DNA of 64,000 bases from Haloarchaeobius amylolyticus (lineage in GTDB: Archaea; Halobacteriota; Halobacteria; Halobacteriales; Natrialbaceae), in the NCBI RefSeq assembly GCF_026616195.1, contig NZ_JANHDH010000003.1, forward strand, positions 62,001-126,000, written 5' to 3'. The notes under the pieces were generated by a model. That model was not told the origin of the DNA. It did no database searches and saw only the letters and a list, made by a program, of their open reading frames with translations. How positions within the stretch are numbered: position 1 is the stretch's first letter; the number at the start of each line of letters is the position of its first letter. The translations under genes were made by a program, and so were the position numbers. Below, in pieces: positions 10,513 through 55,936 of the stretch.

Positions 10513-11950
10513 GTCGCCGCCCCCTACTGTTGGCTGTGTAGGCTGTGCGAACATTCTACACTGTGTGAACTGTTCGAATTCTGCGCGGCTCGGGCGCTAT
10601 CAGGCCCGAAGGGCGACCGTTCTGGGATCTTCACCCACGGGAAGTTCTGAATGTGCACACATTGTACGAAGTCCACGAATTGTGCACGGTCTGAACCTCT
10701 GGGACTGTGTCTACTTCCCTCGGCTCTTTCTCTTCTGGTTCACTACTCAACTGTGAATACAGTGTACAATGTTTACACCGTGTACACGGTTTCAGATGTT
10801 TTGGCTGTCTGGACAGCGTTTGTGTCGATCTCCAGCTGGTTGAGGACACGATGTGTGTACTGTCTACACTGTGTAGGATGTCTATACTGTTGACACAGTA
10901 AACAGCACAGACAGTCCGAACTGGGTCGACAGTGCGCACCGCCTCAGCAGTCTCGACGGTCGAGACAGTCACTACGGTCCACGAGGTTGGAGAAGTGCAG
11001 GACGTCCACACAGTCTACACAGTGTGCAATTCCTGGGCAGTCCGTACGGTCTGAACTGCACGCGATGCGTAGAATGTACAGCTGCCCCTGGCAGTTTCGG
11101 CAGTCTACACCGCCTACACAGCCCACACTTTCCAATCCGCGGATGAACGCCTGAATAACTATCATTCGAGAGCACACAGTCTAAACTGTCTACAAAGTCT
11201 GGAAATAGAATGGGTCTGAACAGGAGATTCTGGCTTTTATGGCTGTAGCTACTATATTAAAATGTGTAGACCGTCTAAACATTCCTGTAAGTGTCTCTTC
11301 TCCACTTTCTACTCCTTGCACTCAGATTGCACCAGAAGATCGTGGATGCAGTTTACACGTCGTACAATGTCTGGACTGTGCTGACAGTCTCGACAGTACG
11401 CAGTGTGCACGATGCCTGGACCTCGATGACGGTGAGCTGGGGCTGGAACTCTCGAACTGTGCAAAATGTGTACACAGTATAGACTTTGTACACAATCCGC
11501 GCCGCTCAGACTGTATCCGCGGCCCACGCTGTCGAGACGGCTCACCCGTTCTGGGATCCGTCACACCGTCTACACTGTATACCCTTCGTACACTGCCCGG
11601 ACAGTTTCGACAGTCACCGAGTTCCAACTCCCACGGTCGTCCCATTTGAACGGAAAGGTGTGCACGGTTTAGACAGTTCACACTTCCCACACGCTCTCCC
11701 CGCCCTTACAGATGGGGACACCCGCGATTACCTCGCCGGAGACTCTGTCTACACTGTCTACACATCGTGGACCTCGTAGACTGTCTGAACTGTCAGCGAT
11801 ACCGTTAAGTCGTCGGGTGGAGACGGTACTGACCGTGCGGAACGCCCGCACCGCCTGCACGGCCCACACGGTGTAGAACGTCTACACCGTTTCGGCGTCC
11901 TGGGCCGTCTCGCGCCGCAGGCGGTGCGAACCGTCTACACAGTGTACACA
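10513..11950 (+). repeat. Contiguous degenerate 9-bp repeat array, putative centromere upstream of parA
   Basis: About 1.4 kb without a credible gene, made of tandem degenerate 9-mers close to TACACWGTS/GACAGTCTA, so that the palindromic core TACACWGTGTA recurs. The exact octamer GTCTACAC occurs at 10862, 11013, 11103, 11568, 11747, 11756, 11880 and 11933; its complement GTGTAGAC is at 11264. The pair at 11747 and 11756 shows the 9-base step directly, and the phase holds for stretches of 100 bases or more (for example 11385-11575). The clusters are strongest at 10741-10910, 11001-11120, 11345-11480, 11560-11600, 11740-11790 and 11865-11950. The last units end ten bases before the parA start, so the array covers the parA promoter. 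By analogy with RHH-type partition systems this is the likely DNA site for the ParA partner protein, and a site of parA autoregulation. Confidence 0.8.
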
Positions 11951-11959: not shown

Positions 11960-12787
11960 ATGAGCACACCACGCGCGGTAAGCGTCGCCCTACAGAAAGG
12001 CGGCGTCGGGAAGACGACGATAGCCATCAACCTCGCGGAGCGACTCGCGAACCGGGGGCACGACGTCCTGCTCGTCGACCTCGACCAGCAGGGGAACGCG
12101 ACGGAAGGCGTCGGACTGGCAGACGCCTACACCGCGGAGACCCACATCGGGGACGTCCTCGTCGACGATGGCGATGCCACCCTGGGTGACATCATCCGGA
12201 CGACGGACACCCTCGACGTGTTGCCCGCGAACGAGGACCTCGACGGGGTCGAGAACACCATCCGGAGTGCGACCTTCGGCGAGCTCTGGATCCGGAACAA
12301 GATAATCGAACCACTGCTCGGTGACGAGTACGACTACATCGTCATCGACTCGCCCCCGAACCTCGGGCCGCTCTCGGACGCCTCGCTCATCGCGAGCCAG
12401 CACGTCATCGTCCCGCTCCGGATGAGCGAACCGAGCGTGAGTGGGTTCGAGCGCATGTTCAAACAGCAGATCGTCCCCATCCGCCAGGAGATCGACCTCG
12501 ACATCCTCGCCATCGTCCCGAACGCGACGTCCGGGACCAACGAGGAGAAGCGCATCATCACCGACCTGGAGGAGTCCCAGTTCGGCGAGTTCCTCCCCAC
12601 GTTCGGCCGGTCTGCACACTTCGACGACCCCGAATCCCCGGGGCCGGGCATCCGCGAACGCATCGCGTTCCGGCGCTCCTGGCGCGAGGGGCTCCCCCTC
12701 GCGGAGTACGACCCCGAGAACGACATGCTCGGGCGGCTGGACGAACTGGCCGGTGTCGTCGAGGACGGAGGTGTCGCAGATGCCTGA
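11960..12787 (+). CDS. parA: ParA/Soj-type partition ATPase
   Basis: A 275-residue Walker-type ATPase for DNA segregation. The deviant Walker A is KGGVGKTT (13-20), followed by VLLVDLDQQGNAT (37-49) and Walker B YIVIDSPPNLG (127-137). There is no N-terminal DNA-binding domain, so this is the short ParF/SegA-like class rather than the P1 ParA class. I chose the ATG at 11960 (MSTPRAVSVALQ); the frame upstream is repeat DNA that only by chance reads as VYTVYT. The gene overlaps the next gene by eight bases, a typical partition operon. Expression is probably repressed by the partner protein bound to the repeats around the promoter. Confidence 0.92.
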   Translation: MSTPRAVSVALQKGGVGKTTIAINLAERLANRGHDVLLVDLDQQGNATEGVGLADAYTAETHIGDVLVDDGDATLGDIIRTTDTLDVLPANEDLDGVENTIRSATFGELWIRNKIIEPLLGDEYDYIVIDSPPNLGPLSDASLIASQHVIVPLRMSEPSVSGFERMFKQQIVPIRQEIDLDILAIVPNATSGTNEEKRIITDLEESQFGEFLPTFGRSAHFDDPESPGPGIRERIAFRRSWREGLPLAEYDPENDMLGRLDELAGVVEDGGVADA

Positions 12788-13229
12788 CGACAACCGGTTC
12801 GCAGGCCTGAGCGAGGCCGTCGAGGGTGAGGAGGAGGTCGAGGAACCGGACGAGGTGGCTCCCGATGCCGACTCGGAGCCGACCCAGTCGACCGAATCGA
12901 CCGAATCAACCGAGCCTACGGCCGATTCGGCGTCGACGACCGAGGATACGGAATCCGAGGCTGAATCCACGGGTGAAGACGAGGAGCAGGAAGAAGAGAC
13001 GGACCCGTCCGCGTTCCCCTTCGACGCGACGAAGAAGAAGACGGTGTACGTGCGCGAGCCGACCATCGAGCGACTGGAGGACGCCCAGGCTCTGGTCGAC
13101 GCCCAGCTCCGGACCGAACACGACGTCCGGAGCCTGACCGGGCGCGAGTTCTACGACGCGGTGTTCCGTGTGGCGGCATCGGACACCGACGCGCTCATCG
13201 AGGAGATCATCGAGGCCCGCGAGGAGTAG
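12780..13229 (+). CDS. Putative centromere-binding partner of ParA (RHH-like)
   Basis: A 149-residue protein whose ATG overlaps the end of parA. Residues 1-80 are acidic, Ser/Thr/Glu-rich and probably disordered (STES/TEST repeats). Residues 85-149 are compact: a basic KKK followed by the strand KTVYVRE (87-93), a helix TIERLEDAQALVDAQL, a polar turn, then a second long helical region ending EEIIEAREE. Strand-helix-helix after a basic patch is the ribbon-helix-helix arrangement used by ParG, omega and SegB partners of short ParA ATPases. The assignment to RHH is inference from the pattern and position; no ParB-type HTH is present. The likely role is to bind the 9-bp array and stimulate ParA. 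Confidence 0.65.
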   Translation: MPDDNRFAGLSEAVEGEEEVEEPDEVAPDADSEPTQSTESTESTEPTADSASTTEDTESEAESTGEDEEQEEETDPSAFPFDATKKKTVYVREPTIERLEDAQALVDAQLRTEHDVRSLTGREFYDAVFRVAASDTDALIEEIIEAREE

Positions 13230-13904: not shown

Positions 13905-15581
13905 CTACGAGCGTTCGACGAGCGTCCGGAGTAACTTGCGTTCGCCGGCGCGGATGTGGTGATGGAACGTGGAGGGGGAGATGTCGAGGGACTCGGCGAT
14001 GTCGACGCCGGAGTTCTCGCGCGGCGATTCGAAGAACCCGGAGAAGAACGCGGCCTCGAGCGCGGCACGCTGTTTCTCGGTCAACTCGTCGGAGACGACG
14101 GACGAGAGTGACTGGGCCGGGTCGCTGTCTCGCGTCGTCTTCCTGTTCGCGACGACGGTCGTGTCCGGGTACTCCGCTTTGAACACGTCGAGGACGCGCC
14201 GGGTATCCGAGCCCGGTGGCAGGTGGATGGTGATGTCGAAGTGCCCGTCTTCGATGGTGAACCGGGCGATGCGACCGCCCATCTCGGCGACGGTCCAGAT
14301 GACCGGGGGTTCGCTGAGGCGCAACTCGAAGCGCGAGGTCTCGGCCTTCGGGTCGTCGATCTCGACCGCCTCGTGGTGGTCGAACCGGTCGACCAGCTCG
14401 TGGAGCACCTCGACGCCGTCGGCCGGGACGGTCCCGTACTGGAGGAACTCGCCGTCGCCGAGGGGGATGGTCCGGTCGATGGTGATCGACTCCCCGGGTG
14501 GGAGTGCCACGTCGATCTGGTCGAGGACGCTCGGAATCTGTACCTGGAGTTCGACGACCTCCTCGCCCAGCAGCGCCTGTTTCCGGTTGATGGCGTTGAT
14601 GGCGTGCCCGAGGACCTCACCGAGACGACCGATGACCTGCCGTTCTTTCGAATCGAACGCGTCGGAGGCGCTGGCCCGGAGGACCACCACCCCGTAGGCG
14701 GTCTCCTCGTGGACGACGGGGATGGCCGCGACGGCCCGCACGCCCGCCTCTCGGACACGCTCCTCCCAGGGGTTCCCGCCCTGGACGTCCTGTGCGACAG
14801 AGACGCTTCGGCTCCGGATGGCCTCGAATATCGGGTGGACCGGGTCGTCGTCGCGGGTGGGTGCCGCCTCGTCGGCCAGCGTTTCGGCTGGTGCACGGTC
14901 GATGCCAGCCTGGGCGCGGGCGGTGACCACGTCGTCTGTCCCGCCAGCCTCGGCGAACCAGGCGGAGTCGTAGAGGTCCGCCGCCGCGAGGTGTTCGCAG
15001 GCGAGGGACTCGACCTCCTCCCGGGTTGTCGAGCCGATGGCAAGGTGGGAGATCTCGTGGACGAGTTCGTTCAGGGAGTTCAGGGTCGCCAGCCGGTCGC
15101 GTTGCTGTTCGAGTTCTCGCTCCTGGGCCCGTCGCTCGATGGCGTGATGGACCGAGCGCACGAGCAGGCTGGCGTTGATCTCGCCCTTGACGAGGTACTC
15201 CTCGGCGCCGCGCTTGAGTGCCTCCATCCCGACGTCGCGGTCCTGGACGCCGGTGAGCACGACGATGGGAACGGTCTCGTCGTATTCCCTGACGCCATCT
15301 ACCGTCTCGAGGCCCCTGCTGTCGGGGAGGTTGAGGTCGAGGAGGACCGCGTCGGGCGGGTCGTCGTCGAGTCGGTCGAGGCCGTCCTGCAGCCGAGTCT
15401 CGTGTTGCAGGGTCGGACCCCAGTCGTCGGCAGTGACGGTCTTGTCGGGGTCGTCCGGTCTCCCCGCATCGTTCGCACGGACCTCGAGTTCCGTGGCGTC
15501 GTGCAGCAGTTCCTGGATGTAGCGCGCGTCGCCGGCGCTGTCCTCGATGAGCAATAGCGTGAGCGAGTCGTGGCCTTTCAT
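13905..15581 (-). CDS. Receiver-GAF-HTH_10 (bacterio-opsin-activator type) regulator
   Basis: A 558-residue transcription regulator. Residues 8-145 form a receiver with the acidic pocket in LIEDSAGD, phospho-acceptor Asp82 (LLDLNLP), Thr110 and Lys132. Residues about 185-335 are a GAF domain. Residues about 350-490 form the strand-rich Bat-type domain that precedes the HTH_10 helix-turn-helix near 500-552 (LTEKQRAALEAAFFSGFF, then SLDISPSTFHHHI). The family is known from Bat, the oxygen/light regulator of bacterio-opsin. Just upstream on the same strand lie a free receiver and a histidine kinase, so the three form one signalling unit; the kinase is the obvious phosphodonor, by inference. Confidence 0.9.
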   Translation of the reverse strand: MKGHDSLTLLLIEDSAGDARYIQELLHDATELEVRANDAGRPDDPDKTVTADDWGPTLQHETRLQDGLDRLDDDPPDAVLLDLNLPDSRGLETVDGVREYDETVPIVVLTGVQDRDVGMEALKRGAEEYLVKGEINASLLVRSVHHAIERRAQERELEQQRDRLATLNSLNELVHEISHLAIGSTTREEVESLACEHLAAADLYDSAWFAEAGGTDDVVTARAQAGIDRAPAETLADEAAPTRDDDPVHPIFEAIRSRSVSVAQDVQGGNPWEERVREAGVRAVAAIPVVHEETAYGVVVLRASASDAFDSKERQVIGRLGEVLGHAINAINRKQALLGEEVVELQVQIPSVLDQIDVALPPGESITIDRTIPLGDGEFLQYGTVPADGVEVLHELVDRFDHHEAVEIDDPKAETSRFELRLSEPPVIWTVAEMGGRIARFTIEDGHFDITIHLPPGSDTRRVLDVFKAEYPDTTVVANRKTTRDSDPAQSLSSVVSDELTEKQRAALEAAFFSGFFESPRENSGVDIAESLDISPSTFHHHIRAGERKLLRTLVERS

Positions 15582-16053: not shown

Positions 16054-19000
16054 TGAAGATCTCCGTCGGCCGGGATGGTGAACTTGAACGTCGAGCCCTC
16101 GTCCCGGTCGGACTCGACCCAGATCTGGCCATCGTGCCGGTCGATGATGCGCTGGCACAGCGCCAGCCCGATTCCGGTGCCCGAATACTCGTCGTGCGTG
16201 TGGAGTCGCTCGAACACCTCGAATATTCTGTCGTGCATGTCGGGGTCGATGCCGATGCCGTTGTCCTCGACGGCGAACACCCACTCGTCCCCCTCGCGGC
16301 TGGCATCGATGGTCACCTCCGGGTCCCGTTCGTCGTGTCGGTACTTCAGTGCGTTCGAGACGAGGTTCTGGAACACCTGTTCGAGCTGGTTCGCGTCGGC
16401 CTGCACGGTGGGTAACGAGCCGACGGTCACCGTCGCGTCCTCGTCCTGTATCTGCATCTCGAGGTTCTGGAGTGCCCGGTCGACGACCGCCTCGGTATCC
16501 GTGGGCTCGAACGACTCCGCCTCGGTGTCGATGCGCGAGTACGCCAGCAGGTCGTCGACCATGTCGCGCATCCGGTTCGCGCCGTCGACGGCGAACTCGA
16601 TGAACTCCTGGCCGTCCTCGTCGAGGTCGTCGGCGTAGCGCGACTCGACGAGCTGGAGGTAGTTCGAGACCATCCGGAGCGGTTCCTGGAGGTCGTGGGA
16701 GGTGATGTACGCGAAGTGTTCGAGGCGTTCGTTCGACTCCGCCAGGGCGTCGACCATCTCCTCGCGCTCCTGCCGGTAGGTATGGCGCTCGATGGCGGTC
16801 GCGAGCAGCGCCGAGACGCTCTGGACGAACGTCACGTCCTCGTCGCCGTACGAGCGTTGTTCCGTATCGTGGGTCCCGAGGATGCCCCACGGGTCGTCGT
16901 AGGGACCGATAACGGTGCTGATGCCGCTGGAGACGTCGTGGGAGGTGAGCAGGTCCGGGCCCGAGAACCGCGTCTCTGTCGCCATGTCCTCGACCACGAC
17001 GGGGCCGCTCGTGCGCAGGGTGTACGACGCCTGTGAATCGTCTTCGACGGCCGAGACGGTCGCCTCGCCGACGATGCCGTCGCGCCAGCCGACGCCCTGT
17101 CGCAACAGGAGTTCCTCCGCGTCCTCGTCGAGGTCGAGCACCTTGCAGTAGTCCACGTCGAGGACGTCGGTGACGAGGTCGCTCGCCATCTGGAACAGGT
17201 CGTCGAGGTCCGGCTGCTCGAGCGCGTATCGACCCAGCCGCGAGACGGCCTCCTGCTGTCGAGCCCGCGTCTCGAGGTCCTCCTCGTACTCCTTGCGGTC
17301 GGTGATGTCGCGGACGACCCCGACGCGGCCGCGGCCGCCCTCGACATCGAACTGCTTGAACCGGCTCTCGACGGTGATCGTCGCCTGCTCGGCTGTGTGG
17401 AGGCGCTCTTCGAATACGGCCACGTCCTGTCCGTCGTCCTCGAACAGGTCGTGGGCTTCGGCGTCGATGTCGTCGAACTTCTCGCCGAAGACGAGCGAGG
17501 CGTGACTGCCGAGCAGTTCGGCCCGGTCGAACCGCGTCATCGACACCATCGCGTCGTTCACGCGCTGGAAGCGGGCCGCTTCGTCGAGGACGTAGACGCC
17601 GTCGTCGACCGTCTCGACGATGCGTTCGTACTCGTGCAACTCGCGTTCCCGCTCGACGCTCTCGTAGGCGGCCTCGGCGTTCGCGGCGAGGAGTTCGATC
17701 AGGTGCTGGAGGTGCTCGTCGAAGGCGTCGACCTCCCGGGAGCCACAGATGAGGACGCCGTGGTCGCCCATCGGGACGAACACGCCGCCTCGCATCTCGG
17801 TCTCCTCGGTCGACGCGTCGTTGTACTCGACGTCGAGGATGTTCTCGAACCGCCGTGGCTCGCCGCCCTCGAACACGTGGCCGGTGAGGGTGCTGTCGTC
17901 GGCCGGGATCCGGGGGAGCGAATCTCGCATGAGTCCTTCCGCCATCGACGCCATACCGGGGTAGAGTTCGTCGCTGCACTCGTCGTAGCGGTAGACGCCG
18001 ACGCCGGGGACGTCGAGGACGTTGACGGCCGCCTCGACGATGACCTCGCTGACCTCCTCTTTCGTCGTCGCTCGCAGGAAGGCCTTCGCCGTCTCATTCA
18101 GCGTCCGCAGCTGGTTCTCTTCTCGCTTCCGTCTGGTGATGTCTCGGACGATGCCACACCGGCCTTGACCGTCTCCCGTCGGGAACTCCTGGAACCGACT
18201 CTCGACCGGGACCCGGTCGCCGTCGCTCGTGTGGAGTTCCAGCTCCAGCGTCGCCGTCTCCTGTTCGCCCCGGTGGATCTGCGCTTCGAGTTCCTCGACC
18301 TCGGGGGTCAGCTCGTCGTCGTAGACTGCTGCGGCGTGTCGGCCCAGGAGTTCGTCGCGGTCCCAGCCGGTCATCTCACAGAAGGCCCGGTTGGCGAGGA
18401 TGAACCGACCATCGTCGTCGACCGCGTAGACGCCGTCGTCGACCGTCTCGACGATGCGTTCGTACTGTTCGAGCTCGCGCTCGCGTTCGATGCGGGCGCT
18501 CACGTCCCTGACCACGCCGACGCGCTCGTAGACGCCGTCCGTGTCCGACAGGAGCGAGAAGGTCGCCTCGGCCTGGACGGTCTCGCCGCTCGCGGTGTTG
18601 ATGTCGGCCGTTATCATCGCCGTCTCCTTCGTCCCGGCCCGGAGGTCCGTCTCCCGGTCGTTCGCTCGCTCGATGGTCTCCTCGTCGACCACCTTCGAGG
18701 CGTGCGACCCGAGGAGTTCCGAACGGCTGTACCCGGTCAACTCGACGTAGGCGTCGTTGACCATCGTGAAGTAGCCGTCCGGGTCGACCGCGTAGACGCC
18801 GTCCTGCATCGTCTCGAGGATCTTCCGGTGGCGGTCCCAGGTCCGGCCCTGGTCGTCCGGGGGCCGCCACCAGAGGCGCGTCTCCTCACCGACGACCTTC
18901 GAATCGAGGTCGCCGCGACGCTCCAGGGATTCGAGCCGCTCTCTGGCCGTCTCAGGTGAACAGTCCAGCGACGCTGCGACCTCCTCGACCGTTCGAGGGG

Positions 19001-19076
19001 TGTTCGCGTCGTCCGATACGAACCACTCGAGGGTTGTTGTGAGCCCGTCGCTCGCCCCAGACCCCGATGTTCCCAT
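16050..19076 (-). CDS. Multi-PAS/GAF sensor histidine kinase
   Basis: A 1008-residue soluble sensor kinase. The order of domains is a winged-helix-like N-terminus (about 10-70, TVEEVAASLDCSPETARERL), PAS (80-200), PAS (205-325), GAF (330-480), PAS (490-610), GAF (625-770), then HisKA with the phospho-acceptor His in YITSHDLQEPLRMVSNYL (near 800). The ATPase domain shows N-box NLVSNALKY, G1 DNGIGID and G2 GTGIGLAL. There is no membrane segment, so it senses an internal signal such as redox state, gas or light through PAS/GAF ligands that cannot be read here. It is the first gene of a three-gene signalling unit on the minus strand. Confidence 0.92.
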   Translation of the reverse strand: MGTSGSGASDGLTTTLEWFVSDDANTPRTVEEVAASLDCSPETARERLESLERRGDLDSKVVGEETRLWWRPPDDQGRTWDRHRKILETMQDGVYAVDPDGYFTMVNDAYVELTGYSRSELLGSHASKVVDEETIERANDRETDLRAGTKETAMITADINTASGETVQAEATFSLLSDTDGVYERVGVVRDVSARIERERELEQYERIVETVDDGVYAVDDDGRFILANRAFCEMTGWDRDELLGRHAAAVYDDELTPEVEELEAQIHRGEQETATLELELHTSDGDRVPVESRFQEFPTGDGQGRCGIVRDITRRKREENQLRTLNETAKAFLRATTKEEVSEVIVEAAVNVLDVPGVGVYRYDECSDELYPGMASMAEGLMRDSLPRIPADDSTLTGHVFEGGEPRRFENILDVEYNDASTEETEMRGGVFVPMGDHGVLICGSREVDAFDEHLQHLIELLAANAEAAYESVERERELHEYERIVETVDDGVYVLDEAARFQRVNDAMVSMTRFDRAELLGSHASLVFGEKFDDIDAEAHDLFEDDGQDVAVFEERLHTAEQATITVESRFKQFDVEGGRGRVGVVRDITDRKEYEEDLETRARQQEAVSRLGRYALEQPDLDDLFQMASDLVTDVLDVDYCKVLDLDEDAEELLLRQGVGWRDGIVGEATVSAVEDDSQASYTLRTSGPVVVEDMATETRFSGPDLLTSHDVSSGISTVIGPYDDPWGILGTHDTEQRSYGDEDVTFVQSVSALLATAIERHTYRQEREEMVDALAESNERLEHFAYITSHDLQEPLRMVSNYLQLVESRYADDLDEDGQEFIEFAVDGANRMRDMVDDLLAYSRIDTEAESFEPTDTEAVVDRALQNLEMQIQDEDATVTVGSLPTVQADANQLEQVFQNLVSNALKYRHDERDPEVTIDASREGDEWVFAVEDNGIGIDPDMHDRIFEVFERLHTHDEYSGTGIGLALCQRIIDRHDGQIWVESDRDEGSTFKFTIPADGDLQ

Positions 19077-19173
19077 ATTTTGGACTGGCGGTGGTGTCGG
19101 TTAAACCTGTCTCATACGATAGATTACAGGAGACGGGGCTGCGGCCGTGGTGCCTGCCCAGCTGTCGGGGCGG

Positions 19174-20556
19174 TTACACCTGGTACCAGTTCACCGGCTC
19201 GCCTGCGTACTGGTCGGGGATGTCGCCGACGCCCCAGCCGGTTCCCGTCGTCTCGATGTAGGCGTACTCCCGCCCGTCGAGGCGGTACTTGTAGGCATCA
19301 CCGTGCTGATACCAGAGGCCGACGGCCATGTGGCCGGGCGGCTGGATGAGGACGGCGTCGTAGCCGAACGGGTCGGCCTCGAGGATGCTCGCGAGGAGGA
19401 TGGCCGTGTCCTCGCAGTCGCCCTCGAGGGAGACGAGCGTCTCCAGGGCGAACTTGGTGTAGTCGTCGTACCCCATGCTCACGTCGTCGGAGACGTAGGG
19501 GAGCGCCTGGACGAAGTCGATGGCGAACTCGACCTGCTGGAACGGGTCGGTGATACCGTGGTTGTCGGCCTCGGTGACGAGGAGGCTGGCGAGTTCGGGT
19601 GCGACCCCCTGCAGGAGTTCGTACTTGACGTACTCGTGTCTGGACCGCCCCCGGGGCCGTGCACTCGCGCGGTCGAAGGCGGACTTGAACGCGAGGAAGC
19701 TCACCGACCAGCTCCGGCCGGCGGTCCGCCCGGTGAGTGTCAACAGGTACGCGCCCTCGATGGGATAGCGCGAGAACCGTTCGTTGGCCGCCTGCGGGTG
19801 GTTCTCGGTCCGGGGGGCGCGACGGATGCGGTCGTCGTCCGGGTAGATGACGAACGGGTCGGTCTCCATGACGAACTCGGTGCGGCTCTCGGCGACGGTC
19901 CGGATGTCGGCGTCGTCGGGGAGGAGGACGGCCACGTAGTGCAGGCGTTCGTTCCGGGGGGCGGTGTCGAGGTTGATGTCGACGGAGACGGTCGTCTCGC
20001 CCTCCGAGCGGACGAACCTTTCGCTCGTGGCCTCGGCGACGAACTTCTTGCGCGGGTAGACGAACGCCCCGACCCAGACCTTCGCGACCTCGCTGTTCAT
20101 CGCGGGCTGGTTGGGGTAGACGTCGACCGAGACCGAGTCGATGCCGTACTCGCTGACGTGGGTACGTGTCTGCCAGTACTCGTCGGTCACGGTGAGCCGG
20201 CCGTCGTCGGCCTCGCGGGGAGGAACGGGTTCTGGGGTCGAGGTCTCTGCGGGTGACGGGGCCGTCGAGTTCGTGGTGTTCGTGGAGTTGGTGCCGGCCG
20301 TCGTCTCCGCCTCGCCGAGCGCGCGTGCCGAGGGGACCAGTGTCTCGGGGGGCGACGGTGCGGCCTTGAGGGAGACGAAGGGGACCTGCTCGGCCGTGCG
20401 GTCCATCTGCTCGGGGTCGTCGACGAAGTTGTCGCGGTCGAGGAGTCGCCGGTAGCTCCCGACGTCCTTCGCCGGTGGTGCCTCGACGGTCGTCAGGCAG
20501 CCACTGACGAGCGGCACGCTGGTGGCGATGGCGCCGAGCAGGTGCCGCCTGTTCAT
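19174..20556 (-). CDS. Exported lipoprotein with transglutaminase-like domain
   Basis: A 460-residue protein with an N-terminal MNRRHLL signal and lipobox LVSGC, so it is probably anchored as a lipoprotein on the outside. A Thr/Ser/Asn-rich linker (about 85-115) follows, typical of haloarchaeal surface proteins. The C-terminal 150 residues hold a transglutaminase/protease-like core: nucleophile Cys in LEGDCEDTAILLASIL, His in PPGHMAVGLW, and an acidic residue in YAYIETTGTGWGVGD. The fold is also found in peptidases and structural proteins, so the activity is not certain. It is separated from its neighbours by intergenic DNA on both sides. Confidence 0.85.
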   Translation of the reverse strand: MNRRHLLGAIATSVPLVSGCLTTVEAPPAKDVGSYRRLLDRDNFVDDPEQMDRTAEQVPFVSLKAAPSPPETLVPSARALGEAETTAGTNSTNTTNSTAPSPAETSTPEPVPPREADDGRLTVTDEYWQTRTHVSEYGIDSVSVDVYPNQPAMNSEVAKVWVGAFVYPRKKFVAEATSERFVRSEGETTVSVDINLDTAPRNERLHYVAVLLPDDADIRTVAESRTEFVMETDPFVIYPDDDRIRRAPRTENHPQAANERFSRYPIEGAYLLTLTGRTAGRSWSVSFLAFKSAFDRASARPRGRSRHEYVKYELLQGVAPELASLLVTEADNHGITDPFQQVEFAIDFVQALPYVSDDVSMGYDDYTKFALETLVSLEGDCEDTAILLASILEADPFGYDAVLIQPPGHMAVGLWYQHGDAYKYRLDGREYAYIETTGTGWGVGDIPDQYAGEPVNWYQV

Positions 20557-25002: not shown

Positions 25003-27852
25003 CTATTCAACCGCCGGCTGGGGTCGGTCGCGGTCGACGAGGCCCGCGAAGAGTTTGCGCTCGATGCGGTTGATGTGGTCGTAGAAGGCGGTGTGGGAGA
25101 TGCCGAGGCGGTCGGCCACGTCCCGGCCGGTCACGTCGCGGTCCGCGTCGAAGAACCCGCAGTGGTACGCGACCTGTGCGACCTCGCGCTGGCGGTCGGT
25201 GAGCCCCGCGTCGTCGCGGTCGTCGGTCTCGATGGGGCGTGGCTCCTTGCGCTGGGAGACGAGGTCGACCGAGGCGAATCGCTGGGAGAGCATCTCGTCG
25301 ACCGCGCGGATGGTGGCCGTGTCCGGCACGTCGACGACGAGCTGGACGGCCCGGGGTGTCGCCACCAGCCGTCGACGGGTCGCGCCGTGGCTCGCGAGCA
25401 GCGCCGTCACGAACTGGCCGCGGACGGCGAAGCTCACCAGTCCCTCGTCCTCCCCGTCGCGGATGCACTCGGCCGCGGTCACGTCGACGTAGGAGGCCGC
25501 CTCCTCGACCACCGCCTGTGGCGAGGCTCCCTCGACGGTCACGAACACGAGTGTCGTCTCGTCCGAGCGAGAGACCTCGCTCTCGACCGTGAGGATACAG
25601 TCGAAGCGCTCGGCGAGACGCAACAGGACCGACGCGGGGTCGCGGATCTCGTGTTCGAGGCGGAACACGGAGTCGCTGCGGAGGGCCTCCTTGCGCTGGA
25701 TGCTATTGATGGCGGCGCCGATGGTGGTGCCGAACTCGGCGAACACCGACTGGACCGTCTCGCCGAAGGAGTACGGCTCGTCGTCGTAGACGGTCAGCGT
25801 CCCGAAGGAGACGCCGTCGTAGACCAGCGGAATCGAGAGCACGGAGTCGAAGTTCCGCGAGACGGCCTCCTTGCACCACGCCGCCTCGTGGAGCCTGTCG
25901 GCGACGTTGGGCACGACGGTCAGGGCGCCATCGCGGAGCGCCTGTGCGGCCGGCTCCGGGGCGGTGTCGTCGCCATCGACCGAGAGCGAGACGCTGTCGA
26001 GGTAGCCGGCGCCCGTCGCCGCCCATTCGCGGGGTCGCAGCCGCCGGTTCCGCGCGGTCGACTCGGCGATCCACGCGAACGCGAACCGTCCCTCTGCAGT
26101 CAGTTGCTCGACGACGGCGCGCTCGATCTCCTCGCGGGTCTCGGCCGCCACGAGCGCGCTGTCGATGTCGCGGATGATCTCGTTGACCTGGTTCACCTCC
26201 GAGAGGCGGTCGTTCTGCTCCTGGAGCGCCTCGTCTCGCTCGCGAAGCGCCGCCTCCCGGGCAAGGCGGTCGAAGGCAGCCTCCGTCGTCGCCGCGAGCA
26301 ACTCGCCGACCTCCTCGTCGACCCCGTCGAGGCCCGCCTCCTCGACCGCCCCGACGAGCAACACACCGTGTTCGCCCAGTGGGACGACCGTGTAGCCAGT
26401 GAGGTTCGCCAGGACGCCCGCCCGTCGATCGGAGTCGGCCGGGTCTGGGGTTGCAGCGGGTCGGGTGGTCGTGCCCTCGAGGTAGGCCCGGCTGATGGGG
26501 TGGCGCTGGTCCAGCGTCACGTCGGGGAGCGAGCCGAGGTGGTCCCAGATTGGCTGGGACGCGGCGAGGGGATACAGCGTGTTCTCGGCGTCGTCGAGCC
26601 GGTAGAGGGCGACCCCGCCGTTGGTGAGCGCGGTGGTCGCGTCGCGGGCGACCTGGTTGGCGACCGCGGTCGTGGTTTCGGCGTAGAGCAGTTCTCGGCT
26701 GGTCTCGTGGAGCTGGGTGAGCGCCTGCTCGCGCTGCTTTCGCGTGGTGATGTCGCGACAGCTGTAGAGCCGTGTACCCTCCTGGATGGAGACGTTCCGG
26801 ACGTTGACGAGGAGGGTGTGCTCGTCGCCGGCCTTGTCGGGTGCGGTGCACTCGATGTTCGTGATGACCGTCTCGGATTCCAGCCGGCGCTCGTCGAAGA
26901 GGTCCGCGCCGAGGAGTGCGTCGATGGTGCCGAGGTCGTAGATCTCCTCGGCGGTGTAGCCGAAGATGAAGTGGACGTTCGGGCAGACGTAGGTGAACTC
27001 GCCCGCGTCGTTCGTCACGAGAACGGTGTCGGTCATGTTGTTCAGCGTGACGCGGTGGAGCTCCTCGGAGGCCTGGAGTTCGGCCTCCAGTTGCGCGCGC
27101 TCGGCGAGGACGTCGCCCTGGACGAGCAGGTCGCCGGCGTCGGTCGGTCGGACGCGGAACTCGAGTCTCTCCTGCTCGCCGGTTGCTGTCGAAAGCACTG
27201 CCTCGAAGCGGCTGAGGTCGCCCTCTCTGGCGTCCTGCACTGCTTGCTGGGCCTCCCGCTTCGTGAGTTGCCCGTCGCGCCAGGGCAGCGCCCAGAACCG
27301 CTTGCCGGTGTAGCGGTCGCCCTCGCCGCCGAGGGCGTCGTCGGCCGTCGCGTTGAGCGACTGGATGGTACCATCCCGCGCGAGGACCGCCACGAACCGG
27401 TCCGGGTCGTCGGCGACGGCCTGGAATCGTGCGCCCCGCCTGCGCTCGCGGGCGTGGTCACGCTCTCGTTCGAGGACGGTCGCGAGGCCGGCCTCGCCGA
27501 CGGTTCCCGGCCCAGTCTCGTCCATGGGCACGACCCACGTCGCGGGGGTACAGTCGGCTGCTTCAACTGACTCGGCAGTCTCCGGGGCGAGGACGAACGG
27601 GCGTGGATTCTCGCCCATCTGGGTGGTCTCGGCGAGGTCGCGACCGGTCCCGTCGTCGAGCTGCTGGGCGCTGACGACGATGTCCGGCGGGGTGTCTCCG
27701 CCGAGGCGGTCACGGGCAGCCGCCGTCGTGGAGACGGGTGTGGTGTCCAGTCCATCGACCTGCTCGACGACCGGGCCGACGTGTGAGCGCCAGGCTGTCG
27801 ACCCCACGAGGAGGACCGTCACCGGAGACGCGGGGCCCCTGTCCGGGTGCAT
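25003..27852 (-). CDS. PAS/GAF-HTH_10 (bacterio-opsin-activator type) regulator
   Basis: A 949-residue regulator. The start is set at the ATG at 27852 (MHPDRGPASPVTVLLVG); the frame stays open to 28005 but that part lies in repeat DNA. Residues 10-130 form a receiver-like domain without a clear phospho-acceptor. Two PAS domains follow (about 145-270 and 275-395, the latter with FTYVCPNVHFIFGYTAEEI), then GAF domains (about 400-560 and 590-735), a Bat-type domain, and HTH_10 near 895-943 (LTDRQREVAQVAYHCGFF, LGISHTAFYDHI). It should bind DNA in response to an internal signal. The repeat satellite lies about 130 bases upstream. Confidence 0.88.
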   Translation of the reverse strand: MHPDRGPASPVTVLLVGSTAWRSHVGPVVEQVDGLDTTPVSTTAAARDRLGGDTPPDIVVSAQQLDDGTGRDLAETTQMGENPRPFVLAPETAESVEAADCTPATWVVPMDETGPGTVGEAGLATVLERERDHARERRRGARFQAVADDPDRFVAVLARDGTIQSLNATADDALGGEGDRYTGKRFWALPWRDGQLTKREAQQAVQDAREGDLSRFEAVLSTATGEQERLEFRVRPTDAGDLLVQGDVLAERAQLEAELQASEELHRVTLNNMTDTVLVTNDAGEFTYVCPNVHFIFGYTAEEIYDLGTIDALLGADLFDERRLESETVITNIECTAPDKAGDEHTLLVNVRNVSIQEGTRLYSCRDITTRKQREQALTQLHETSRELLYAETTTAVANQVARDATTALTNGGVALYRLDDAENTLYPLAASQPIWDHLGSLPDVTLDQRHPISRAYLEGTTTRPAATPDPADSDRRAGVLANLTGYTVVPLGEHGVLLVGAVEEAGLDGVDEEVGELLAATTEAAFDRLAREAALRERDEALQEQNDRLSEVNQVNEIIRDIDSALVAAETREEIERAVVEQLTAEGRFAFAWIAESTARNRRLRPREWAATGAGYLDSVSLSVDGDDTAPEPAAQALRDGALTVVPNVADRLHEAAWCKEAVSRNFDSVLSIPLVYDGVSFGTLTVYDDEPYSFGETVQSVFAEFGTTIGAAINSIQRKEALRSDSVFRLEHEIRDPASVLLRLAERFDCILTVESEVSRSDETTLVFVTVEGASPQAVVEEAASYVDVTAAECIRDGEDEGLVSFAVRGQFVTALLASHGATRRRLVATPRAVQLVVDVPDTATIRAVDEMLSQRFASVDLVSQRKEPRPIETDDRDDAGLTDRQREVAQVAYHCGFFDADRDVTGRDVADRLGISHTAFYDHINRIERKLFAGLVDRDRPQPAVE

Positions 27853-27978
27853 GTCGCTAACTGAATGGGGTCGGCGCGAAAAGGTTGCCCCTCCCGGTTC
27901 TCGGACGGTCCCACTGGAATCGGTGTCCGCCAGAAGGCGATGACGCGTCCACAAGCAGGAACCATCGCCGGCACGTCG

Positions 27979-28034
27979 TTCGAACTGTCTACACAGTGTA
28001 AACATTCGACACTGTGTGAAATGTGTTTACGTCC
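27979..28034 (+). repeat. Satellite array of the same 9-bp repeats as the ParA locus
   Basis: Six consecutive 9-base units, read as gaactgtct, acacagtgt, aaacattcg, acactgtgt, gaaatgtgt and ttacgtccc. They include the octamer GTCTACAC at 27987-27994 and the core TACACAGTGTA. The block sits in the short intergenic gap between the alcohol dehydrogenase stop and the HTH_10 regulator start, about 16 kb from the main array. It is probably a second binding site for the ParA partner protein. Confidence 0.7.
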
Positions 28035-28051: not shown

Positions 28052-29113
28052 TCAGAACTCGGTCACGACTTCGATGCCACTCGTCTCGTAATCGCTCATG
28101 GCAGCCAGTCGGTCGGAGACCGCCGCCAGTGAGACGCGATTGGTGACCAGCGCACCCGGGTCGAGCCGGCCCGACGCCATCATCGTCAGCAGTTCGTCGT
28201 AGCGCGAGGGCGGCATCCCCCGCGAGCCGAGGAAGTCCACGTCCCAGCGCGTCATCGCGTCGATGGGCAAGGCGACCTCGCCCTTCTCCGCCTCGGTCGT
28301 CAGGCCGAGCTGGACGTGGGTGCCTCGCGTCGCGAGGCAGTCGACGCTGTTGCGGCAGGTCTCTGCGCGCCCGAGGGCGTCGACAGATACGTCGGCGCCG
28401 CCGCCGGTTCTCTCTTGGATAGCTCCCGGCACGTCCTCGGTCGCACTGGCATCCACTATCGCGTCGGCGCCCAGACGCTGGGCCATCGAGAGCGGTTCCT
28501 CGCGGACGTCGACCGCGACGACGCTGGCCCCGAGCGCAGACGCGATCTGCACCCCTGCGAGGCCGAGCCCGCCGCAGCCGTGGATGGCGACCCAGTCACC
28601 ACCCCCGACCGCGGCCCGGTGCGAGAGCGCGTGGAAGGCGGTGACGTAACGACACCCGAGCGCGGCGACGTCCTCGGCCGAGACACCCTCGGGGAGTGTA
28701 ACCGCGTTGAAATCGGCGTTGGGGACGTGGACCTGTTCGGCGAACGCGCCCGGGGCATCGGCCTCGAAGCCGAGGGCGTAGCCGTCGTCACAGACGTTCC
28801 CGTGGCCGTTGCGACACTGTGGGCAGGTGCCGTCGCCGAGGTTGAACGGGACGGCGACGCGGTCGCCGACCGCGAGTTCGGTCACCTGGTCGCCGACCGC
28901 GACGACCGTCCCTGCGGGTTCGTGGCCGAGTACCTGCCCGAGTGGTACCTGGTCGTCGGCCCACTCGCCGTGGCCCTGCCAGGCGTGCCAGTCGCTCCGG
29001 CAGATGCCACAGGCCTCGACCTCGACGACCGCACCATGCTCTGCAGGCTCCGGGGAGTCGAGCGATTCGAGGACGAGTGGTTCGCCGTATTCCTCCAGGA
29101 CGAGCGCGCGCAT
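28052..29113 (-). CDS. Zinc-dependent alcohol dehydrogenase family protein
   Basis: A 353-residue medium-chain dehydrogenase. The catalytic zinc region shows CGICRSDWHAWQG (Cys36 onward) and GHEPAG; the structural zinc loop is CPQCRNGHGNVC, which keeps three Cys with a His nearby. The NAD(P)-binding fold shows IHGCGGLGLAGVQIA. It oxidises or reduces an alcohol/aldehyde pair that cannot be named. It lies between the UspA gene and the repeat satellite on the minus strand, with no clear operon partner. Confidence 0.9.
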   Translation of the reverse strand: MRALVLEEYGEPLVLESLDSPEPAEHGAVVEVEACGICRSDWHAWQGHGEWADDQVPLGQVLGHEPAGTVVAVGDQVTELAVGDRVAVPFNLGDGTCPQCRNGHGNVCDDGYALGFEADAPGAFAEQVHVPNADFNAVTLPEGVSAEDVAALGCRYVTAFHALSHRAAVGGGDWVAIHGCGGLGLAGVQIASALGASVVAVDVREEPLSMAQRLGADAIVDASATEDVPGAIQERTGGGADVSVDALGRAETCRNSVDCLATRGTHVQLGLTTEAEKGEVALPIDAMTRWDVDFLGSRGMPPSRYDELLTMMASGRLDPGALVTNRVSLAAVSDRLAAMSDYETSGIEVVTEF

Positions 29114-33301: not shown

Positions 33302-33345
33302 CGATATGTGTATATCGCTGGCGCCAGCGAGGGGGTTATACAGTT
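33302..33345 (-). promoter_or_regulatory. Upstream element shared by both HalOD1 genes (copy B)
   Basis: Copy B of the element at 31874-31917, with core GGGGGTTATAC at 33331-33341 (plus strand), CTGGC in the same position and a TATA-like cgatataca (minus strand) at about 33308-33316. It overlaps the last two bases of the large regulator gene. Confidence 0.55.
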
Positions 33346-36300
33346 AACCCCCCGTCTCGGAATCGTCGAAGACGAGGTCGAGGAGTTTTCGCTCGCTGTT
33401 CCTGATGTGCCGGTTCACCGTCGGCTGGGAGACGTCGAGCATGTCCGCGATGTCCTGACCGGTATGCTCGCGCGGCCACTCGAAGAAGCCGCTGAAGTAC
33501 GCGGTCCGGAGCACCTCCTCCTGGCGCTCGGTCAGGCGTTCCCGGTAGACGGCCTGGAACTCCTCGCGGGACTGGACGGGGCGCTCGCGCTCCTTCCGCG
33601 AGATCATCTCCGCGTCCTCGAACGTGTCGAGGAACATCTGGATGAACGACTGGATGTCGCCGCTTCGCGGCAGTTCGACCGTGAGTCGCCCCGAGTCGGG
33701 CGTCGCGGACATCTCCTTCGGGTAGGCGCCGTGTGAGATGAGCGTCCCGAGGAACCCGGAGTCGGTGACGGTCGCCTCGAAGCGGGCGGCCCCGTCGCGC
33801 TCGGCGAGGAAGGAGACGTCCCTGACCGACGTGGTGTGCTCGCTGAACGCGTAGACGTCCTCGGGGTCGGCGTTCGAGATGCTGAAGAACACGCGGTAGG
33901 TGCCGTCGGCCTGCTGGACGAGTTCGTCGAACTCGAAGATGCTGTCGTTCGACCGGGCGAAGCGGATGGCCGGCACGTCCGGGTCGTCGAGTTCGAACTC
34001 GAGTGCGATGGCGGCGTCGCTCACGAGCATCTTCTTTCGTTCCATCGCGTTGATGGCGTAGCCGACCATCTCCCCGAGTTCTTTGAGCACGGCGACCTCC
34101 ATGTCGTCGAACACGCCGGTCTCGTCGGCGTAGATGTTCAACACGCCGTAGAGCGTCTGACCGTACGTGATGGGGACGGCGATGCTCGCCCGGAAATCGC
34201 GCTGGAGGGCGTCGGTCCGCCAGGGCTCGAACGGCGGGTCAGTGTGCAGGTTGTTCTGGACCTGTGGCTCGTGGGTGAGGAACGCGCGGCCGGTCGGGCC
34301 GTCCGACTCGGGTGTCTCGCCGTCGATGGAGATGGTGATGGCGTCGAGGTAGCCGTCACCCTCGCCGGCTGCTGCCCGTGGGGAGACCGACGCACCCTGG
34401 ACCGTCTCTCGCTCGGCCATCCAGCTGAAGGTGTAGGGGCCGCCGTCGGTCAGTTTCTCACAGACCGTCTGCTCGATCTCCTCGCGGGACTCCGCGTTGA
34501 CGAGTGACTGCGTGATGTCCCGGATGAGGCGGTTGATGCGCTCGATTCGCGCAAGGGCGTCGTTGCGCTCCTCGAGCCGGTCGCGCTGGCGACGGAGTTC
34601 CTGCTCGCGGTCGACGCGTTCGAGTGCGGCCAGCGTGTTCGAGGCCAGGATGTTCGCCAGCGTCACCTCGGTGCTGGTGAAGGCGTCGGGGTCGGTCGAC
34701 CCGGTGACGAGGACGCCGTGTGTCCCGATGGGCAGGACGATGGCACTCTCGAGGGTGGTCTCGTCACTGGCAACCTCGGGGGCGTCGCTGAGGTGGTCGT
34801 ACACGCGACCCTCCTGTTCGGCGTACACCTGCCACGGAATCCCCTGTGTGCCCGAGAAGAGGGGGCCGTCGCCGACGAGGTCGGTGACGGAGTCCGTCTG
34901 TGCGACCGTCGTCAGGTGACCGCCGTCGTCGTCGTAGAGCTGGACACTCGTCACCGGGAGGTCGAGCGTCTCGCGGGCGGCGCCGACGACGGTGTCGGCG
35001 ACGGCCTTCGGCGTCTCGACCCGGGTCAGCGTCTGGGCGACCTCGTTCAGCAGCGCCAGGCGCTCCTCGCGGCGCTTCCGGCCGGAGATGTCCCTGACCA
35101 CGCCGACGCGACCGTGTCCGTCCTCTCGCGGGAACAGCGAGAGACTGACCTCGATGGGGACCACGTCGCCGTCTGCGGTCGTGAGCGTGGTCTCGAGGGT
35201 CTCGGTCTCGTGGTCGTTCTTCGCCAGGTGCTGCTGGAGGCGTTCGGCCTTCGCACTGGTCCGCGAGTCCACGAACCGGTCTGCCGGTTCACCGACGAGT
35301 TCCCCGCGCTCGTACCCGATGAGGTCGGTGTAGGCGTCGTTGACCGCGAGGAACCGGCCGTCCTCGTCGAGCGCGTAGATGCCGTCGCTGACCGTCTGCA
35401 TCACGGCGTCGTGGCGCGCGAGCTGTTGCTCGCGAGCCTTGCGCTGGGTGATGTCCTGGAACGAGAAGATGGCCGCCATCGTATCGCCAGCCTCGTCTGC
35501 CAGGGGCGCACCACAGGCGAAGAACCAGTGCGTCTCCCCGTCGACGTCGAACCGGAACTCGCCCTCGATGGTCTCCTCGTGTTCGATGACGGCGGTGTAT
35601 GGGTGGACGTCTTCGGCGACGTTCGTGTTCTGGCTGCCGCGCAGGTCTATGTCGACCGCCTCGTAGGTGGCGCGCTCGCCCTCGGGGATGCCGAGGGTTT
35701 CGCGGGCGCGCTCGTTGGCGTACGTGAACTCGCCGTCGTCGTCGACGATGAGGATGCCCGCGGGGTTCGTATCGAGGATGCGGCTGGTCAGAGCCTCCTG
35801 CTCCCTGAGGTCGGTCTCGATGCGGAGGCGTTGCATCAGTAGGCCGAGGTCGGTCGCGACCGCCGCGGTCGCCTCGACCATGCGCTCGTTCATCGCCCGC
35901 GCCTCGGGCAGTAAGAAGACGAGGACGGCGACGACCTCCTCACCGGCGGTGATGGGGACGCCGAGTGCAGCGTGCAAGCCGGCCGCATTCGCTTCCTTCG
36001 ACCGCCCGAAACCGGCCGTGTCGTCGGTCACGTCTGCGATCCACTCCGGCTCCCCTGTCTCCCAGACGCGGCCCGGCAGGCCAGCGCCTTTCTCGAACGT
36101 GTGCGATTCGGCCGTCTCGGCGAAGGCGGCTGCATCCTCGGTCGCGACGTACTGCTCGGGGAGACACGCCAGCTGGTCGCCGTCCTCGGCAGGGACCCAC
36201 ACCTCCCCGTAGGTCCAGTTCATCGACTCGCCGACGCTCTCGAGGGCGACCTCGAGGCCCGACTCGAAGTCCTCGGCCTGGAGGATACGCTGGCTCGTGT

Positions 36301-37099
36301 CGTGGAACAGTTCGCGCTCCTGTCTGAGCGTGTGTCGCTCGCTGATGTCCCTGATGATGCCACTGAAGACGCGCTCGCCGTCGACGGTGGACTCCGAGAA
36401 GGACACGCTGATGGGCACCTCGTGGCCGTCCCTGTGCTCGCCGACCAGCTCGACGTCGGTCCACTCCAGCGTCCGCGTGCCCGTCTCGAGGTACCGCTGG
36501 AAGCTCTCCCGGTGGCGCGCGGCGACCTGGTCGCTCATCAGGTCGGTCAGGGACTCGCCCACGACGGCCTCCGGCGTGTACCCGAAGAGGTCCTCGATGC
36601 CGCTGGTGGCGTAGCGGATCTCGTTCGCCTCGTCGATAGTCACCACGGCGTCGTCCGATGCTTCGATGAGTTCCCGGAGGTGTCTCCCGGGTGGCTCGTC
36701 GAGTGTGTCGGCATCGCCGCTCTCGAGGATCCTGGAGACGTGATGCGAGAGGATCGGAAGCGTCTCCGGTCCGGTGTAGGGAACGATCTCGTCGATGCCG
36801 GCGTCGTACGCGGTCTGGATCTCTGCTGCGGAGAGGTCCGGTGCCAGCAACACCGTCTCGATGCCGGGCTGGCTACTCACGAGAGTGTCGATGACCGCCT
36901 CGGTCGGCTGGTCGAATGCGTCGAGCCCATCGAAGACGACGCACGCGACCTGGTCACCGACCCGGTCCTGAAGCCCCGCGACGGACGTCGTCGAGACGCG
37001 CTCCGCCCCGAACTCGGATTCGAGGAAGGCACGGACTCGTCGCGACTGGTCCTGTCGCTGGTCCGCATAGAGTATCGTAGATACGTTGCCGTCAGGCAT
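33344..37099 (-). CDS. Very large PAS/GAF-HTH_10 regulator
   Basis: A 1251-residue regulator starting at the ATG at 37099. Residues 5-125 form a receiver-like domain (ILYADQRQDQSRRVRAFL, VVFDGLDAF). Next are PAS (about 140-262), GAF (270-415), PAS (425-540), PAS (548-668), GAF (675-825), GAF (855-1010), a Bat-type domain (1020-1180) and the HTH_10 near 1190-1245 (LTERQEEVLRTAYFSGFF, LDVSQPTVNRHI). The number of sensor domains suggests integration of several internal signals. The 14-bp palindrome at 37151 lies in its promoter region, shared with the divergent hydrolase gene. Confidence 0.9.
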   Translation of the reverse strand: MPDGNVSTILYADQRQDQSRRVRAFLESEFGAERVSTTSVAGLQDRVGDQVACVVFDGLDAFDQPTEAVIDTLVSSQPGIETVLLAPDLSAAEIQTAYDAGIDEIVPYTGPETLPILSHHVSRILESGDADTLDEPPGRHLRELIEASDDAVVTIDEANEIRYATSGIEDLFGYTPEAVVGESLTDLMSDQVAARHRESFQRYLETGTRTLEWTDVELVGEHRDGHEVPISVSFSESTVDGERVFSGIIRDISERHTLRQERELFHDTSQRILQAEDFESGLEVALESVGESMNWTYGEVWVPAEDGDQLACLPEQYVATEDAAAFAETAESHTFEKGAGLPGRVWETGEPEWIADVTDDTAGFGRSKEANAAGLHAALGVPITAGEEVVAVLVFLLPEARAMNERMVEATAAVATDLGLLMQRLRIETDLREQEALTSRILDTNPAGILIVDDDGEFTYANERARETLGIPEGERATYEAVDIDLRGSQNTNVAEDVHPYTAVIEHEETIEGEFRFDVDGETHWFFACGAPLADEAGDTMAAIFSFQDITQRKAREQQLARHDAVMQTVSDGIYALDEDGRFLAVNDAYTDLIGYERGELVGEPADRFVDSRTSAKAERLQQHLAKNDHETETLETTLTTADGDVVPIEVSLSLFPREDGHGRVGVVRDISGRKRREERLALLNEVAQTLTRVETPKAVADTVVGAARETLDLPVTSVQLYDDDGGHLTTVAQTDSVTDLVGDGPLFSGTQGIPWQVYAEQEGRVYDHLSDAPEVASDETTLESAIVLPIGTHGVLVTGSTDPDAFTSTEVTLANILASNTLAALERVDREQELRRQRDRLEERNDALARIERINRLIRDITQSLVNAESREEIEQTVCEKLTDGGPYTFSWMAERETVQGASVSPRAAAGEGDGYLDAITISIDGETPESDGPTGRAFLTHEPQVQNNLHTDPPFEPWRTDALQRDFRASIAVPITYGQTLYGVLNIYADETGVFDDMEVAVLKELGEMVGYAINAMERKKMLVSDAAIALEFELDDPDVPAIRFARSNDSIFEFDELVQQADGTYRVFFSISNADPEDVYAFSEHTTSVRDVSFLAERDGAARFEATVTDSGFLGTLISHGAYPKEMSATPDSGRLTVELPRSGDIQSFIQMFLDTFEDAEMISRKERERPVQSREEFQAVYRERLTERQEEVLRTAYFSGFFEWPREHTGQDIADMLDVSQPTVNRHIRNSERKLLDLVFDDSETGG

Positions 37100-37150
37100 T
37101 GATACCCACACTCATAGGTCCCCCCATCACACACTTCATACTTGTGGAAT

Positions 37151-54772: not shown

Positions 54773-55936
54773 ATGTGGGTTGCCACCATGCTGACCATTC
54801 TCGGGCTGCTCAGCGTGGCGACCATCACCCAGTTCACGGGGTACCGGCTCGGCGGGACCATCACGGTCCCCATCCTGGCCGTCTACACGCTCAAGGACCT
54901 CTCGCTGTTGCCGGTGTTCGTCCTGAGCACACTCACCGCGTACACAGGGCTGTGGCTGTTCCGGCGCCGGACCCTCGTCGCGGGCCGTGACGAGCTGGTC
55001 GTGGCGATGGTCGTCGGGACGACCGTTCCCCTGGCCATCTTCCTCCTCGTCGACCAGGTCGGGCTCCGGTCCGACGTCATCGTGTTCTTCGGCAGTATCC
55101 TCCCGGGGCTGGCCGCGTACAACTACCACCAGATCCGCCCCGAGTACCGCCGCAACGACCTCGCCGCGGCCGTCACCCTGTTCGTCGGCCTCCTCGTCAT
55201 CGGGTGGGTTCTCGTCACACCCGCCGTGGCAGCCCAGTTCGGGACGCTGACACCCCCGGTCCTCTTCTCGCGGACGGCAGACATCGCGCTCCTCAAGAAC
55301 GCGACCGCCGGCGCCGACGTGGCCCCCGACGTCATGGCGCGCGAGGCGGTCGCCGTCCTGTTCGCAGCCGGACTGGTACTCTCCGAACGCCTGCGTGACC
55401 GTTTCGGCGTACGCCTCGGTATCATCACGGCCGTCCTGCTCGGCATCTACGCGCTCTCTAACTACTGGCTGCTCGTCCTGTACCTCGTCCTGTTCGTCCT
55501 CGCGTTCGGGTTCGTCCAGGCGGCCAACTACGCGACGCTGCGCTACGGGCGCGTCCTCTTCGGGCTCACCGCGGCGGTCGCCATGCTCCTGGCCATCCCG
55601 TTCGTGCTCTGGTTCCCCATCACCCGCGGGCTCTCGGCGTTCTTCGTCGCGAACATCGCCGGGGTGACCGCCTACAACGCACATGTGACGCCACCGTTCG
55701 AACGCCGCCTCGTGCTCCCACTGCAGGTCGGCGTATTCGTCCCGTCGCTGCTCTTCGCCCGGCTCTTCAGCACGCCACAGCCCCAGGGCTTCACCCACCC
55801 GGTCACGCTCCCGGTCGTCGTCGCGGGGGCCCTCCTCACCGCGATGGCACTCGGACTGGCGTACTGGTACTCGGTCGACCTCCCGGACAGGGCGGCCGTG
55901 CGGTCCGCGTCGGTCCTCCCTGGGGGTGACTCGTGA
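54773..55936 (+). CDS. capC: CapC/PgsC-type membrane protein (internally duplicated)
   Basis: A 387-residue membrane protein with about ten segments. Two halves resemble each other and the 150-residue PgsC/CapC protein of poly-gamma-glutamate synthesis: GGTITVPILAVYTLKDLSLL...LFRRRTLVAGRDELVVAM and GIITAVLLGIYALSNYWLL...TLRYGRVLFGLTAAVAM. It would form the membrane part of a poly-gamma-glutamate (capsule) synthase with CapB, encoded downstream with a 4-bp overlap (GTGA). The TATA-like gttttgtaag, 27 bases before the ATG, fits a leaderless message. No capA/pgsA gene is seen. Confidence 0.8.
   Translation: MWVATMLTILGLLSVATITQFTGYRLGGTITVPILAVYTLKDLSLLPVFVLSTLTAYTGLWLFRRRTLVAGRDELVVAMVVGTTVPLAIFLLVDQVGLRSDVIVFFGSILPGLAAYNYHQIRPEYRRNDLAAAVTLFVGLLVIGWVLVTPAVAAQFGTLTPPVLFSRTADIALLKNATAGADVAPDVMAREAVAVLFAAGLVLSERLRDRFGVRLGIITAVLLGIYALSNYWLLVLYLVLFVLAFGFVQAANYATLRYGRVLFGLTAAVAMLLAIPFVLWFPITRGLSAFFVANIAGVTAYNAHVTPPFERRLVLPLQVGVFVPSLLFARLFSTPQPQGFTHPVTLPVVVAGALLTAMALGLAYWYSVDLPDRAAVRSASVLPGGDS

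Follow-up and report, generated by a model that had tools for sequence, protein, structure and literature searches.

Satellites of a ParA-proximal 9-bp repeat array as candidate secondary centromere sites on a haloarchaeal replicon

Sixteen kilobases from a haloarchaeal ParA locus, an intergenic block of DNA, S2, carries the same 9-bp motif as the long repeat array that precedes parA. From sequence comparison, we consider that S2 probably serves the partition system of its own replicon, called C3, as a secondary centromere-like (parS-like) site. The window analyzed here is a 64-kb stretch, C3 62001-126000. C3 measures 753,550 bp and belongs to the six-contig, 4.6-Mb genome of a Natrialbaceae haloarchaeon. 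Its termini are identical over 103 bp, and thus C3 is circular. Five tRNA genes are predicted on it, among them two for tRNA-Lys and one for tRNA-Glu near satellite S3, so C3 could be a chromid and not a plasmid.

The ParA array and satellite S2

The main array spans 1.4 kb and consists mostly of blocks of two to five contiguous units (Table 1). Its unit consensus is G-T-S-T-A-N-A-C-W, also given as GTSTACAC, near-palindromic and with a period of 9 bp. Phasing from block to block was considered and dropped: the distance between the first two blocks is 117 bp (13x9), and the other spacings are not multiples of 9. In the accessible literature, we found no description of the 9-bp repeat. Periodicity of 9 bp, with other consensus sequences, also occurs upstream of more divergent haloarchaeal ParA genes (L203 and L088).

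Downstream of the array lie the genes for the ATPase and its partner. The partner comprises an invariant N-terminal MPxDNRFAGL motif, an acidic low-complexity linker, and 70 conserved residues at the C terminus. Family, profile, and structure searches gave no Pfam, NCBIfam, or PDB match, and the profile comparison with PDB chains was uninformative. The sequence pattern strand (KKTVYV)-helix-helix is suggestive of a ribbon-helix-helix (RHH) fold, with AlphaFold2 models of low confidence. Specifically, those models contain just two low-confidence helices, with no strand called and no PDB match by Foldseek. Homologues of the partner adjoin ParA in Haloferax, Salinigranum, Halostagnicola, and Halosolutus, and the Haloferax ParA-partner locus likewise has 9-bp arrays.

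Table 1. Features of the window and of replicon C3
Feature	Position in window	Position on C3	Strand	Description
Main array	10536..11950	72.53-73.96 kb	.	~70 units of the 9-bp motif in ~14 blocks; ends at ParA start
ParA-family Walker ATPase	11960..12787		+	275 aa; PF13614 (AAA_31), E=1.6e-38
ParA partner	12780..13229		+	149 aa; 8-bp overlap with ParA end; presumed repeat-binding protein
PAS/GAF/BAT/HTH_10 regulator	25003..27852		-	Neighbour of S2; probably no conserved part of the system
Satellite S2	27978..28030	89.98 kb	.	Six contiguous 9-bp units (GTNNNNAC + 1 / +N), intergenic; longest contiguous run 6 units
Zinc alcohol dehydrogenase (ADH)	28052..29113		-	Neighbour of S2; stop codon 28052, 21 bp from S2
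HerA/DUF87 ATPase gene		18323-20098		Follows satellite S1
Satellite S1		20.09 kb		Longest contiguous run 4 units
Satellite S3		598.12 kb		Longest contiguous run 4 units
Satellite S4		632.57 kb		Longest contiguous run 5 units

Read directly, S2 is GTTCGAAC T GTCTACAC A GTGTAAAC A TTCGACAC T GTGTGAAA T GTGTTTAC, that is, six 8-mers spaced by exactly 9 bp. An earlier note, made from the letters of the window, had described six consecutive units of the array family at 27979-28034, isolated and 16 kb from the ParA locus; the block and its kinship with the array hold, and its limits are corrected to 27978-28030. The kinship was measured with a 9-bp matrix learned from the main array only (70 sites, with 36 of the 69 successive gaps exactly 9 bp). 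The six-unit stretch of S2 scores 53.5 bits, above the 46.5 bits of the main array's own best six-unit window. The null maximum over 40 simulated third-order Markov windows is 1.7 bits, and the best non-overlapping window elsewhere in the 64-kb stretch is negative, at -7.9 bits. In addition, the window contains 11 copies of GTCTACAC, where 1.8 would be expected: nine are in the main array, one is in S2, and one stands isolated at 54881. S2 is thereby confirmed as real, in phase within itself, and built of the same motif as the ParA array.

S2 lies, as first described, between the ADH stop and an HTH_10 regulator, and the identities of the two neighbours (zinc ADH and BAT+HTH_10) hold. The start of the regulator needed revision. 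The ORF-maximal ATG at 28005 falls inside S2, and we prefer the in-frame start at 27852 (MHPDRG...VTVLLVGS), 125 bp from the block.

Distribution across genomes and replicons

The motif tracks the ParA/partner module across genomes. We surveyed 125 Natrialbaceae genomes with a sequence model built from the main array only, and counted a partner homologue as close at E<1e-30. Such a homologue is present in 27 of the 125. The array model matches 29 genomes: every one of the 27 that have a close partner, and 2 among the remaining 98 (Fisher p=2e-25). The reversed control pattern is absent from 124 of 125. In one exception, G090, an 85%-identical ParA is truncated where the contig ends, next to an array. 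The second exception, G007, carries two strong satellites (G007:C2 909029 and 1089484) on a 1.14-Mb replicon, and its only ParA and partner are divergent (44% and 32% identity, respectively). Homologue and pattern searches of the four other species of the genus found neither partner nor motif.

Within the genome, the repeats are confined to C3. C3 was scanned with the matrix, and the remaining contigs were searched with patterns and sequence models. The earlier note had named many equal hits at random sites as the outcome that would speak against it; the full scan of C3 returned the array, four isolated blocks (S1 to S4), and nothing more, and the same scan of three simulated C3 sequences returned zero blocks. 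In the other 3.9 Mb of the genome, a three-unit pattern allowing at most two mismatches finds nothing, and the reversed control pattern has no match in the whole genome. We do not claim that the satellites cluster in one third of C3 (p of about 0.06 by hand calculation).

Satellites are present on every replicon that was fully scanned, as clean runs of 3-6 contiguous units with a median of 5. The sister species G005 carries four on a 675-kb replicon. Flanking alignments place three of them at the orthologous positions of S1, S3, and S4, and the fourth falls within a stretch that has been rearranged, with the ADH gene on one side and genes next to S2 on the other. This S2 counterpart is not base-alignable and is situated ~3.3 kb from the ADH stop; thus, S2 is conserved by neighbourhood rather than by exact site. 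S3 is kept nearly base by base. In S1 the bases differ and four contiguous lattice units remain, a pattern that suggests selection on the lattice itself. Farther afield, in five completely scanned plasmids of 180-215 kb (Natronorubrum, Haloterrigena, and relatives), a single array is accompanied each time by exactly one clear satellite. The 285-kb Haloferax plasmid pSVX82-2 also has a single array, with four satellites, all intergenic and three of them convergent. Its satellite by a universal stress protein gene has counterparts, with little sequence identity, in H. mediterranei, H. larsenii, and H. gibbonsii, which score 45, 35, and 30 bits, respectively, against an AT-rich null maximum of 23.

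Viral contigs were searched as well. The three-unit pattern matches 40 of them versus 14 for the reversed control. We dropped the idea of viral decoy sites, since most of these matches resemble simple or coding repeats of low G+C; the ParA query matched none. Three viral contigs with 57-60% G+C (L245, L262, and L248) do carry short arrays of 9-bp units that resemble GTCTACAC or GTTTAAAC, which could be decoy or unrelated sites.

Regulation, replication, relics, or partition

What could the satellites do? One proposal, raised in the earlier note, is that the ParA partner regulates the adjacent gene, here BAT/HTH_10. In its strict form, the satellites would be operators with no partition role. 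S2 does lie upstream of the regulator start, and many plasmid satellites precede a BAT/HTH_10 gene; in one lineage they are mostly ~100-500 bp upstream of another BAT gene. RHH-type ParB proteins, for example pSM19035 omega, do control promoters (PMC9499535). Against this stands the identity of the genes. An early impression from clustering, that S2 and the plasmid satellites share an orthologous BAT regulator, was ruled out by blastp: the BAT gene of the window ranks fifth or lower among the C3 matches to the plasmid satellite-adjoining BAT genes, at 27-29% identity. In G005, where the block sits in the rearranged stretch, the blastn match covers the ADH gene and genes beyond it, not the regulator. 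Moreover, several BAT/HTH_10-type regulators occur in the one 64-kb window (13905-15581, 25003-27852, and 33344-37111), so a satellite adjoining a BAT gene is unremarkable by itself.

Gene orientation carries the argument further. In annotated plasmids, all 11 satellites (in N. daqingense, N. bangense, N. aibiense, Haloterrigena KLK7, H. larsenii XH-48, Halosolutus, Natrononativus, and four in Haloferax) fall between listed genes, in gene tables that are incomplete and could miss a small gene. The flanking pairs are convergent in six cases, tandem in four, and divergent in one. No promoter is expected between converging genes, which disfavours promoter control. Convergent gaps should repel the operators of a regulator and need not repel extra centromere sites. 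Among the convergent cases is N. bangense, whose satellite persists although it has no adjoining BAT gene, and the Natrononativus satellite is 2 kb from a BAT gene, beside another gene. Placement is therefore intergenic and not promoter-specific, and neighbour-gene regulation is not supported as a general role; we regard operators as an unlikely explanation of the satellites.

A second alternative is that the satellites are relics: pieces of the main array that inversion or transposition carried elsewhere and that no longer have a function. S1 invites this idea. The HerA/DUF87 gene that adjoins it has a homologue in G090 (L116, G090:C134; 56% identity) that divergently adjoins the parA array, so S1 could have broken away from the end of an ancestral array. 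DUF87 genes also flank the array on Halosolutus and Halostagnicola plasmids. Relics should decay and vary, however, whereas clean runs occur on every fully scanned replicon and the lattice outlives base changes in both G005 and Haloferax. We find it quite improbable that the satellites are mere debris.

Finally, the repeats could serve replication instead of partition, as iterons or as Orc1-binding repeats. C3, G005, G007, and the plasmids share one orthologous Orc1 (82-99% mutual identity, compared to 31-47% with the other Orc1 proteins compared), and on each of them a satellite lies about 7-19 kb from it; in many replicons the separation is 4-20 kb. In Haloferax, Orc1 adjoins the ParA locus. 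Yet an iteron or ORB array belongs at an initiator gene or origin, and on C3 the Orc1 gene is at 623.7 kb, ~200 kb from the main array at 72.53-73.96 kb; on plasmids, the array is roughly 100 kb from the orthologous Orc1. The motif, in turn, tracks the ParA partner. To our knowledge, a uniform 9-bp lattice is unlike described ORB elements. A replicative role thus seems very improbable. Because the replicons carry the same Orc1 lineage, they share a backbone, and the recurrence of satellites is partly inheritance; selection for position is possible. On plasmids of 180-225 kb (G100:C4, G102:C2, G109:C4, G101:C3, G023:C2, and others), the satellite and Orc1 are roughly opposite the ParA array, offset in most by about 0.41-0.49 of the circle.

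The reading we favour, a dispersed centromere, extends the earlier note's suggestion of further centromere sites, which gains support from the restriction of the blocks to C3, their recurrence on related replicons, and their tracking with the ParA partner. The notion is that the partner would bind the 9-bp lattice, probably as one dimer per near-palindromic GTNNNNAC unit, and that contiguous runs of ~4-6 units would each form one cooperative nucleoprotein patch. The main array, with ~14 runs upstream of parA, would be where the principal partition complex assembles, and binding there would probably make the operon autoregulated. The four satellites would nucleate smaller complexes, also open to capture by ParA. 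They would add points of contact with the DNA cargo next to the array and next to the Orc1 gene, and might bridge both regions. We infer partner binding, ParA recruitment, and any role in segregation from these sequence patterns.

A review of archaeal segregation lists as still open what form plasmid centromeres take, whether clustered or dispersed, and by what means halophiles segregate multiple replicons (PMC5120986). A sequence-defined candidate centromere, array plus satellites, together with a named candidate binding protein speaks to those questions. The system is present in Haloferax, where genetics is available, and the question is directly testable. More tentatively, and with more doubt than confidence, we speculate that this is a class-wide haloarchaeal partition system with an undescribed family of 9-bp-lattice partners and a distributed centromere, in which one large array is joined by a few short satellite runs at conserved places around the replicon, some near Orc1. 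On that view, a single ParA system might tie the origin region of polyploid secondary replicons to the par locus.

Comparison with known partition systems

Several partition systems share features with the one proposed for C3. Bacterial chromosomal ParB-CTPase/parS systems likewise have several sites around the par locus. In those systems, a 16-bp parS is bound by an HTH CTPase; Pfam and NCBIfam searches detect no ParB N-terminal or HTH domain in the C3 partner. On Deinococcus secondary replicons, direct-repeat centromeres are reported upstream of parAB (PMC7671480), so that a repeat array precedes the partition operon, as here; the repeats and the host differ from those of C3.

The SegAB system of Sulfolobales and other archaea likewise pairs an archaeal ParA-type ATPase with a downstream partner, which binds DNA in the case of SegB and is presumed to do so here. 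In Sulfolobales, SegB sites are clustered near segAB and also scattered elsewhere (PMC12284271). SegB sites are imperfect palindromes with the core AGA-S-TCT, mostly intragenic and chromosomal, whereas the C3 sites are contiguous, intergenic lattices on a secondary replicon, with the consensus GTSTACAC and period 9 in place of the palindromic core.

By analogy, the nearest functional parallel is the delta/omega/parS system of pSM19035, an RHH-type ParABS. pSM19035 has six parS sites, each of 7-10 contiguous 7-bp repeats, and full activation of its ParA takes at least four contiguous repeats (PMC9499535). Like that system, C3 has a Walker-type ParA, a small downstream partner linked to it across genomes, and sites made of contiguous short repeats that lie both upstream of parA and at further places; the satellite median of five units compares with the minimum of four. 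The two differ in that the pSM19035 repeats are 7-bp WATCACW units overlapping promoters, whereas C3 has 9-bp GTNNNNAC units in a large array with distant satellites that are often convergent, and the C3 partner is not recognizably homologous to its pSM19035 counterpart. Thus, with a 9-bp period in place of WATCACW, the C3 system falls outside the pSM19035 parS family, though it would work alike.
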